Below are positions 15,478 through 46,802 of a stretch of 64,000 bases of DNA, one piece after another (within the stretch, counting starts at the first letter, position 1; every line of letters starts with the position of its first letter). Below the pieces are notes generated by a model. The model was given only the letters and a program-made list of their open reading frames with translations. It was not told the DNA's origin and made no database searches. Both the position numbers and the translations under genes were made by a program. The stretch spans positions 62,001 to 126,000 of the forward strand of contig NKIR01000001.1 of the NCBI GenBank assembly GCA_002255985.1, in the 5' to 3' direction. This DNA is from Sphingomonadaceae bacterium PASS1 (lineage in GTDB: Bacteria; Pseudomonadota; Alphaproteobacteria; Sphingomonadales; Sphingomonadaceae).

Positions 15478-15535
15478 CCCCGGCGCAGGCCGGGGTCCAG
15501 TTTATCGTTGTGGTCCGTGCCCCGGCCTTCGCCGG
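15478..15535. repeat. Pair of REP-like hairpins between atpA and atpG
   Basis: CCCCGGC-GCAG-GCCGGGG (15478-15495) and CCGGC-CTTC-GCCGG (15522-15535), roughly inverted relative to each other. Confidence 0.65.
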
Positions 15536-15546
15536 AGATCAGTGAA

Positions 15547-44355: not shown

Positions 44356-45759
44356 GTGTCCATGACCAAAGCGGCATTCTCAACCATAGGCCAATCCCCT
44401 TGGCGCCATGAGCTTCGGGCGACGTTGCTGCTCGCGTGGCCGATGATCCTGTCGAACCTGACGATGATGCTGATCGGCGTAACCGACGTCATTTTGCTGG
44501 GCTGGCTTGGGCCGCGTGCGTTGGCGGCGGGTGCTTTGGGGCACAACCTCGCCATTTTCTGCGCGATTTTCTGCATGGGTTTAATCACGGCCACGGCGCC
44601 GATGATGGCATCTGAAAAAGGCCGCATGGCGCATTCGGTGCGCGATATTCGGCGGACCTTTCGGCAGGGTCTTTGGGTATGCTGCACGGTCATGGTGCCG
44701 GTGTGGGCATTTTTATGGAATGCCGAAGCCATCCTGATTGCGACGGGTCAGCAAGCGGATCTCGCCGCCGACGCTGCGGTGTTTGTGCGGGCCTATATGT
44801 GGTCCATATTGCCGTTCCTCGGATTTCTCGTTCTGCGCAATTTTGTCGCGGCGCTGGAAAAGCCAGTCTGGGCAACCATCGTCGCGTGCGGAGCAGTGCT
44901 GTTAAATGCCGTTGTCAATTACGGCCTAATTCTCGGTAACTTTGGCTTGCCGCAATTGGGGCTGGTCGGAGCGGGCATTGGCAGCACGATTACCAATGTC
45001 GTGCAGTTCGGGGTCATGGCTCTCGTCGTCACCTTCCATCCGAAATTTCGCCGCTACCATTTATTCGGACGCTTCTGGCGTGCGGATTGGCGGCGGTTTC
45101 GCGAGATATGGCGTTTGGGATTGCCGATTGGGTTCACGATGGGTTTCGAAGGCGGCGTGTTTGCACTCGCTATCCTGTTGATGGGGCTGATAAACGAGGC
45201 GTCGGTTGCGGCACATGCGATCGCCCTCCAAATCGCGTCGCTCACCTTCATGGTGCCCATGGGGCTGGGGCAGGCCGCGACGGTGCGTGTCGGCCTTGCT
45301 TATGGCCGGCGCGACGCGGTTGCGATCACACGCGCAGGCTGGACCGCTTTCGTGCTGGGGACCGGATTTATGGCGGTCATGGCGCTTGGCATTTATTTGT
45401 TTCCAGAGGCGCTGATTGGTATTTTCGTCACCCCCGTCGATGCCGCAACGCGCCAAGTGTTTGACCTTGCTGTCAGCTTCCTGCTGGTGGCCGCGATATT
45501 CCAGATTGTCGATGGCGCGCAGGTTGTCGGCGCGGGCATGTTGCGTGGACTGCACGATACCAAAGTCCCGATGTACTTTGCAGCGTTCGGATATTGGGTG
45601 GTCGGCATCGGTGTAGGTGCTTGGCTTGCGTTTCGGGCAGGTTGGGACGGCGTCGGTGTGTGGACCGGCCTTGCGGCCGGACTTGCGCTTGTGTCGGTAT
45701 TGATGCTCGTCCGCTGGTCGATGCGGGCGCGGCTCGGGTTGCTGCCTTCAGAAGCTTAA
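44356..45759 (+). CDS. MATE family efflux transporter
   Basis: Twelve-TM-like hydrophobic profile; ELRATLLLAWPMILSNLTMMLIGVTDVILLGWLG; HAIALQIASLTFMVPMGLGQAATVRVG. Confidence 0.93.
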   Translation: MSMTKAAFSTIGQSPWRHELRATLLLAWPMILSNLTMMLIGVTDVILLGWLGPRALAAGALGHNLAIFCAIFCMGLITATAPMMASEKGRMAHSVRDIRRTFRQGLWVCCTVMVPVWAFLWNAEAILIATGQQADLAADAAVFVRAYMWSILPFLGFLVLRNFVAALEKPVWATIVACGAVLLNAVVNYGLILGNFGLPQLGLVGAGIGSTITNVVQFGVMALVVTFHPKFRRYHLFGRFWRADWRRFREIWRLGLPIGFTMGFEGGVFALAILLMGLINEASVAAHAIALQIASLTFMVPMGLGQAATVRVGLAYGRRDAVAITRAGWTAFVLGTGFMAVMALGIYLFPEALIGIFVTPVDAATRQVFDLAVSFLLVAAIFQIVDGAQVVGAGMLRGLHDTKVPMYFAAFGYWVVGIGVGAWLAFRAGWDGVGVWTGLAAGLALVSVLMLVRWSMRARLGLLPSEA

Positions 45760-46218
45760 TATGCCATCATATTGCGACAATGGCGGCGCTCCTGGAACCT
45801 TTGCACCGTTCCGCAACAGGAATATGTGCCGGACAATCTCGGCCTGCTGCTCAATCCCGTATTGTTCAAGCTTCCATCCGGGTTTCAGGCTGTAATCATA
45901 GCGACAGAACGGGTGACGCCGCAGCGGCAGGCATATGCCTTTTTGGTGTTGCCACACATGCACCAGCTCGTGAATGAAGTGGCCTTGCAATCCAAGGTCG
46001 CGGTCGCAAAAATCGGCGCAGAATAGTTCGCTTTTCGGGTGGAACCACAAATGACCGTTGGGCGCCATGGTGACCCGGCGGGGTTGAAACCACCAATATT
46101 TGCGATTGTGAATCCGGATCCGCTGATAATCCAGCGCCGAGCCGAACACAGATTCCGCCACCGCCCGCTCACGGACCGTCATTGGCCGGCCGGATTTATG
46201 CGGGCCGAATATGCTCAT
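45748..46218 (-). CDS. Zinc-protease-like protein with HExxH-type motif (the family often labelled vgr-related in sphingomonads)
   Basis: 156 aa; GHFIHELVHVWQHQKG; upstream of REP-like element. Confidence 0.7.
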   Translation of the reverse strand: MSIFGPHKSGRPMTVRERAVAESVFGSALDYQRIRIHNRKYWWFQPRRVTMAPNGHLWFHPKSELFCADFCDRDLGLQGHFIHELVHVWQHQKGICLPLRRHPFCRYDYSLKPGWKLEQYGIEQQAEIVRHIFLLRNGAKVPGAPPLSQYDGILSF

Positions 46219-46229
46219 TCCAGATCCAT

Positions 46230-46304
46230 TTCGTCATCCCGAACTTGTTTCGGGATAACAAACAACGGTGGCGCGTTATCCTGAAACAAGTTCAGGATGA
46301 CGAA
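46230..46304. repeat. BIME-like element: two 30-nt arms in inverted orientation, each itself a hairpin
   Basis: TTCGTCATCCCGAACTTGTTTCGGGATAAC (46230-46259) and GTTATCCTGAAACAAGTTCAGGATGACGAA (46275-46304); 28 of 30 positions complementary. Confidence 0.88.
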
Positions 46305-46328
46305 AAAAATATTGGAAAAGGGCATGCC

Positions 46329-46802
46329 CTAGCCGTCAATTGCCTTTTTCTCGTCCGGGTCAGTGCCGTCGACTTCCTGCACGCGGGCTTTCACCAATAT
46401 GCGGACATTGTTGGAGAACAGAAATTCAGCTTCGATCTCGCCAAGGCGGCGGGGGATAAGGTTGACGCCCCACATCATCACATGCTTGCCACCTTTTTTG
46501 AAGGCGACGGTTTCGGCTGCGGGAATGCGGACGCGTTGCAGGGGCGCCATGGACACTGCCCCCGTTTTCGGATCCACCGTAACATCGTGCATTTCAACGC
46601 GGATGGCTGATGGCGAACTAACGCGCAGCAAATAGACATCTTCGGGGCCGCCATAGACGTTGAAGTGAAATGCCGACGGATTGCTGTCGACCGGCGATAG
46701 CGTGAGGACTGCCTCTTTGACCTTTAGCTGCGGTGTGGGGCCGCACGAGCTCAGTAATAGCGCGCTTGCTGCGGCTGCAACTGTGAATATCCGTCGGTTC
46801 AT
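46329..46802 (-). CDS. Copper chaperone PCu(A)C-like lipoprotein
   Basis: ALLLSSCG lipobox; VEMHDV...MAPLQRVRIPAAETVAFKKGGKHVMMWGV resembles the PCuAC metal-binding pattern. Confidence 0.75.
   Translation of the reverse strand: MNRRIFTVAAAASALLLSSCGPTPQLKVKEAVLTLSPVDSNPSAFHFNVYGGPEDVYLLRVSSPSAIRVEMHDVTVDPKTGAVSMAPLQRVRIPAAETVAFKKGGKHVMMWGVNLIPRRLGEIEAEFLFSNNVRILVKARVQEVDGTDPDEKKAIDG

Follow-up and report, generated by a model that had tools for sequence, protein, structure and literature searches.

A head-to-head pair of CGTC-type REP hairpins in a sphingomonad genome, found in opposite orientations at orthologous sites and with a likely GIY-YIG nuclease partner

Overall, we consider it probable that the strongest inverted repeat in a 64,000-nucleotide stretch of the genome of Sphingomonadaceae bacterium PASS1 (the window) is a head-to-head CGTC-REP pair with a likely partner in a GIY-YIG nuclease of the Ssn type, and that short pairs like this one are non-autonomous derivatives and recognition sites of that partnership. 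The element has many copies in its genome, its single hairpins are conserved, the RAYT transposase that its layout brings to mind is absent, hairpin families are linked to GIY-YIG clades, and the element is found in opposite orientations at orthologous sites.

The element occupies positions 46232-46302 (71 bp) and has its CGTC tags outermost; these tag-to-tag borders come from comparison with the 55 elements of the same genome and with two relatives, G013 and G027. It forms the top-ranked inverted repeat of the window, with 31-nt arms (46229-46259 and 46275-46305) that are 94% complementary and stand 15 nt apart. The left REP unit (46232-46256, plus strand) consists of the tag, stem ATCCCGAA, loop CTTGT and stem TTCGGGAT, and the right unit (46278-46302, minus strand) of the tag, ATCCTGAA, the same loop CTTGT and TTCAGGAT. 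Two near-identical inverted arms at 46230-46304, each a perfect 8-bp hairpin, with arm differences that pair inside each hairpin, were what the original prediction had described, and the sequence bears this out: the difference is one compensated pair, at pair 5 of the stem, C:G on the left and T:A on the right. Between the units lies a 21-nt spacer, AACAAACAACGGTGGCGCGTT (46257-46277), which is made of two facing tails AACnnnCnAC and provides a locus-specific mark for reading orientation. The REP unit occurs twice in the window, as the two arms, against no occurrence expected in shuffles. Folded as one 85-nt RNA strand, the sequence prefers a single long hairpin (-46.7 kcal/mol, z -10.4) to the small hairpins, which reach about -10.1 and -8.6 kcal/mol. 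Against Rfam the long hairpin drew nothing but plant and animal miRNA models, with scores far under their gathering cut-offs, and we take these as chance.

As had also been predicted, the element lies between a PCu(A)C-like gene and an HExxH gene that run in the same direction, both on the minus strand. The former, a copper-chaperone-like gene (46329-46802; PF04314, E 3.1e-15), has its stop codon 26 bp from the element; the latter, an ORF of 156 aa with the motif HELVH (45748-46218), has its ATG 13 bp from the element and orthologous DNA in many congeners, and searches of Pfam and NCBIfam gave no match for it. A plus-strand ORF running through the element (46182-46610), also without a family match, was discarded as spurious. 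Compared over window positions 45808-46307, six relatives, G023, G029, G014, G010, G016 and G002 (L079-L083, L089), have neither the HELVH gene nor the element, and the right break falls within a few bases of the right end of the element. In G015 the element is missing together with about 17 bp of its right flank, and in relatives further removed the locus has a short intergenic region of unrelated sequence, so that none of them offered a clean empty site with an insertion signature.

In the genome itself, a draft of 3.07 Mb in 30 contigs that is 96% complete and in which the window is C4:62001-126000, a search allowing up to 3 mismatches found the unit 89 times, and a reversed control pattern gave none. 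The element is thus repeated genome-wide, mostly as head-to-head pairs, and is not the single-copy sequence that would have spoken against the original prediction. Grouping the copies and searching slightly more widely around them resolved about 55 elements, 39 head-to-head dimers and 16 singletons, and the exact CGTC tag is present in 66 of the 78 dimer units. Two subfamilies can be distinguished. Type A, which includes the window element, measures about 71 bp and has the facing tails AACnnnCnAC; type B, of about 74-85 bp, has CTTA(A/C)T tails and often two unlike stems, ACCC/GGGT with ATGC/GCAT. At four places (L037, the second element of L047, L066 and L067), comparison with the G013 orthologue shows that one and the same intergenic region can carry either type: the dimer is of type A in one species and of type B in the other, and the adjoining DNA differs too. 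The window also holds a second inverted hairpin pair (15478-15537; CCCCGGCGCAGGCCGGGG and CCCCGGCCTTCGCCGGAG), which lacks a clear CGTC tag, is akin to the GCCCC(A/G)GCGCAGGC hairpins that bracket another GIY-YIG clade, and is perhaps a decayed dimer.

Judged by its sequence, we place the window element in the superfamily of CGTC-tagged REPs defined by Di Nocera, De Gregorio and Rocco in 2013 (PMC3733652), with CGTC-2 the nearest family by stem and loop length. As that survey describes them, CGTC-2 repeats share with our elements the CGTC tag at one end, the 8-bp stem and 5-nt loop, the prevalence of head-to-head dimers with the tags outside, the alphaproteobacterial host, the setting between same-direction or convergent genes, and the want of a RAYT gene flanked by the repeats. 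Unlike CGTC-2, however, our subfamilies end in AAC (type A) or CTTA (type B) and not in CCA. Since the survey ascribes the CCA tail only to "most" CGTC REPs, we read the AAC and CTTA tails as variants that do not exclude the elements from the superfamily. CCA tails do occur among the relatives, in two classes of longer unit, one with a spacing of 117 nt and one with a total length of 403 bp. The first of these, with CCAT-type tails, was seen in G003, G006 and G004 (L138-L143, L145-L151, L155, L156); its arms are almost identical across copies, its long spacer varies strongly in sequence and hardly in length, and it is possibly a shrunken derivative of the second, which carries a gene.

The layout had originally suggested BIME/REP pairs mobilised by RAYT transposases, and the first half of that suggestion stands. 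Like REPINs and BIMEs with their RAYT (TnpA-REP) enzymes (PMC3116915, PMC8266576), the elements are paired inverted hairpins in a small, repeated intergenic unit with a tetranucleotide tag, many copies and a conserved hairpin. At the same time, our searches of the genome, the genus and the family led us to reject a RAYT or other Y1 transposase as the partner. The known systems combine a GTAG tag with an HUH/Y1 transposase (PMC3116915, PMC8266576), whereas the tag here is CGTC. A PF01797 search of the genome gave no match although its controls responded, and in the congeners it gave 5 stretches in 4 of 45 genomes, with no CGTC hairpin in the whole locus of any of the five Y1 genes, so that no RAYT gene flanked by REPs was found in the genome or its close relatives. 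Near-complete congeners can hold many copies and no Y1_Tnp gene (G006, for example, has 131 copies in 3 contigs), and among 201 family genomes the repeat was present in 21 of 31 with Y1_Tnp and in 96 of 170 without, which is no association (p = 0.32). The 2013 survey likewise describes CGTC repeats without a dedicated transposase, the tyrosine transposase genes of their hosts not being flanked by CGTC repeats (PMC3733652). That a Y1 tyrosine transposase, present or since lost, moves these hairpins therefore seems to us highly improbable.

A different enzyme is indicated by the longer units. Hairpin pairs spaced 373-378 bp apart, found in a family-wide pattern search, recur in several genera and bracket an ORF of about 105-111 aa that matches PF01541 (E 1e-12 to 1e-14) and whose stop codon is typically a TGA inside the right hairpin stem. 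The full unit, with the nuclease gene between its hairpins, is about 403 bp long when measured across both outer REPs; G196 has two copies, in G013 a unit lies at C3:21505-21903, and Altererythrobacter sp. KTW20L has one at L286. The 2013 survey reports no dedicated enzyme (PMC3733652), and the linked GIY-YIG gene sets our observations apart from it. Six of the proteins, in which Y21, G23, R31, H35, E68 and N81 are invariant, have a GIY-YIG domain with catalytic-type residues, and a profile made from them detects related proteins in 28 of the 45 congeners and in 132 of the 201 family genomes. We compared 135 GIY-YIG loci from the genome search and from named GTDB genomes, collections that overlap and in which some loci are perhaps counted twice: a perfect CGTC hairpin lies within 130 bp of the gene in 120, and the ORF sits inside a head-to-head pair in 63. 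When the same geometry was shifted by 550 bp, a bracketing pair was found at 1 of 263 positions and at least one hairpin nearby at 45 of 263, the latter because REPs cluster. The commonest hairpin offsets, -48 bp on the left and +18 bp on the right, are shared by 19 loci.

Gene and repeat also occur together across genomes, and in matching types. The GAACTTGTTTC repeat, to which the window element belongs, is found in all 47 genomes with a close GIY-YIG relative (E <= 1e-43) against 70 of 154 others, and in at least five copies in 42 of the 47 against 42 of the 154, figures for which p-values ignore shared ancestry and, the genomes being related, overstate independence. In further GIY-YIG clades the gene is flanked on both sides by CGTC hairpins of different sequence, for example ATTCCCGCGAAGGCGGGAAT and GCCCCAGCGCAGGCTGGGGC. 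On the GIY-YIG tree, which has few columns and many weak forks, the hairpin family changes 14 times, where the minimum is 9 and shuffles average 26 (none of 200 was as low), and 73 of the 83 loci with at least two hairpins near the ORF have a single hairpin family. A matching repeat thus lies near the gene and is itself repeated in the genome. The PASS1 draft gave no such GIY-YIG match at E <= 0.01, and several congeners with many repeats, G028 and G004 among them, have no GIY-YIG gene, which indicates that the repeats persist without a visible enzyme; the PASS1 copies may have been left behind by an element since lost, or the gene may be located in the part of the genome that the draft lacks. 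Searches with the GIY-YIG protein found no defence-family match in PADLOC and no more than weak resemblance to solved structures, namely those of UPF0213 GIY-YIG proteins and UvrC, and a literature search for a link between GIY-YIG proteins and REPs found no paper.

The Ssn family, described in 2025, reportedly comprises GIY-YIG nucleases whose target is single-stranded DNA, cut at a cognate repeat that is called NTS in Neisseria, and we take the pattern of GIY-YIG gene and CGTC hairpin to be probably that of the Ssn/NTS system, which is likewise said to join a small GIY-YIG protein to a palindromic repeat in many copies. We regard a small GIY-YIG nuclease of this kind, the Ssn type, as the likely partner enzyme; cleavage, a reported feature of Ssn, is for the sphingomonad proteins a prediction. 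Ssn/NTS is also said to have a role in natural transformation in Neisseria, and nuclease and repeat might accordingly act mainly as a filter on incoming single-stranded DNA, with the repeats accumulating as protection or marking sites and not as mobile elements. A GIY-YIG fold with cognate hairpins at many intergenic places would suit such a role, as would a GIY-YIG locus assigned to Neisseria with a CGTC hairpin nearby (L354), in a genus whose dRS3 repeat the 2013 survey classes as CGTC-1 (PMC3733652). Nonetheless, the 403-bp unit looks self-copying, its gene being enclosed by hairpins of its own whose offsets hardly vary, and G196 having the unit twice; we regard the filter as an unlikely main account.

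The hairpins of these REP pairs have been conserved individually. Among the 39 dimers of the PASS1 genome, 27 have arms that differ in the stem, and 83 stem positions break the long palindrome against just 13 broken hairpin pairs. In 33 distinct units, 96.2% of cells are paired, compared with 88.3% after shuffling and at most 57% in slid structures, and the covariation score is 0.264 against at most 0.088 for slid versions. Paired substitutions, for which the original prediction had looked among the genomic copies, do appear, as 21 cells in which both partners have changed, where shuffles give 5.6, although these cells are non-independent events, a few stem types having been copied many times; pairs with a double change show no excess (3 against 2.5), and the signal thus sits in the cells. 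These counts support the single hairpin, and not the long palindrome, as the conserved unit, despite the preference of the RNA fold for the long hairpin. Whether covariation also means that the hairpins are maintained, as the prediction had it, is another matter. Template switching, a mutational rival known from RNA genes (PMC8794818), can yield paired stem changes without selection, and covariation alone is thus no proof of selection for hairpins.

A reading that does invoke selection would see the pairs as domesticated RNA hairpins at transcript 3' ends, kept for stabilisation or termination, with their mobility long past. By a simple longest-ORF gene model, 33 elements of the PASS1 genome lie between same-direction genes, 17 between convergent and 3 between divergent ones, mostly 5-40 bp past a stop codon, as this reading would have it. 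It would also fit the divergence between orthologous loci in the same orientation, where flanks are about 94% identical and stems differ by 0.8-0.9%, spacers by 6-7% and type A loops by 9%, so that stems stay constant, unlike the middle of the loop, and are 6-8 times more conserved than spacers; and it would fit those orthologous intergenic regions where two species have pairs of different type, A in one and B in the other. However, on the transcribed strand of the window element the hairpin is not followed by a U-run, so the element is not a classical intrinsic terminator, presence varies between relatives at orthologous sites, and template switching could conserve stems without selection. 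Taken as a whole, we find this reading somewhat doubtful; it is nevertheless compatible with, and does not exclude, the CGTC-REP pair with a nuclease partner that we favour.

Such pairs also turn around in place. At the window locus of G013, which is 92% identical over 1,055 bp, the element sits between the same flanks but reads as its exact reverse complement, with agreement at 71 of 71 bases, the arms having turned as well. Since the more distantly related G027 is oriented as in G013, the turn probably took place on the branch of the PASS1 genome (G000). Seven genomes, with G027 added at one locus, gave 25 orthologous loci with recognisable spacers; in 8 of these, at least one pair of genomes has the element in opposite orientations (5 of the 12 type A loci and 3 of the 13 type B loci). 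One of the eight is weak, 2.7% of unrelated spacer pairs reaching its score (L035/L116), and was kept; another candidate (L045/L159), with a spacer score of 0.62 that 7% of unrelated pairs reach, was dropped from the final count. Several flipped loci also show divergence in the DNA that immediately adjoins the element, be it on one side or on both, and the history there is thus not simple. A separate locus, L055 (3055-3081 in G000), has a single hairpin where the same site in G013 (L137) has a full dimer, the pattern to be expected had slippage between the arms removed the spacer together with one arm.

Opposite orientations might be assembly errors, since assemblers working from short reads are able to invert a spacer that is flanked by identical inverted arms. 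Several of the compared genomes are drafts or metagenome bins, and homodimer arms are perfect over 25-29 bp. At the window locus, however, the arms share just 11 bp without mismatch in both genomes, the distinguishing arm bases have turned along with the spacer, and G027 agrees with G013; the arms of L125/L194 share 17 bp. We therefore judge error unlikely at the window locus and possible for perfect homodimers in metagenome bins, and as an account of the flips in general quite improbable. A biological cause is at hand in template switching between the arms of inverted repeats, which is known to invert spacers and to homogenise arms in yeast (PMC8604942) and in RNA genes (PMC8794818). We infer that it caused the flips seen here, which resemble those systems in both outcomes at short inverted repeats and differ from them in concerning a dispersed bacterial REP dimer at several loci and in several species, with the mechanism presumed. 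The accessible text of the CGTC survey does not include in-place inversion (PMC3733652).

The general pathway for such a nuclease and its REP pairs can thus be sketched, if only conditionally. Consider a complete unit of about 403 bp, carrying its nuclease gene between two hairpins, in a genome with short pairs such as the window element, which would be its non-autonomous derivatives and recognition sites. The nuclease would recognise tag and hairpin in single-stranded DNA and nick there, and the nick could start copying to a new place, or could limit the uptake and recombination of single strands. Once in place, a pair would behave as a replication hairpin, in which template switching between the arms would restore stem pairing and, now and then, turn the element around. 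That the nuclease cuts these hairpins and has moved them is what we infer. We would go further only tentatively, and with less confidence than we have in the partnership itself: CGTC REPs could be a second, independent REPIN-like mobile system, with a GIY-YIG nuclease in place of the HUH transposase, the unit of about 403 bp as the autonomous element spreading by single-strand cleavage, the short dimers carried along by it, and hairpin processing giving rise, as a side effect, to frequent flipping in place.

If the 2025 work on Ssn already covers these repeats, the value of our observations would lie in connecting that enzyme with sphingomonad CGTC REPs and with a gene-carrying unit of constant size. 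What makes or maintains CGTC REPs is a question that the 2013 survey left open (PMC3733652), and linkage, co-occurrence and the matching of clades now point to one small enzyme family. The flips, in turn, indicate that dimers change orientation over the time that it takes species to diverge, and they are a caution against taking paired stem changes as proof of selection.
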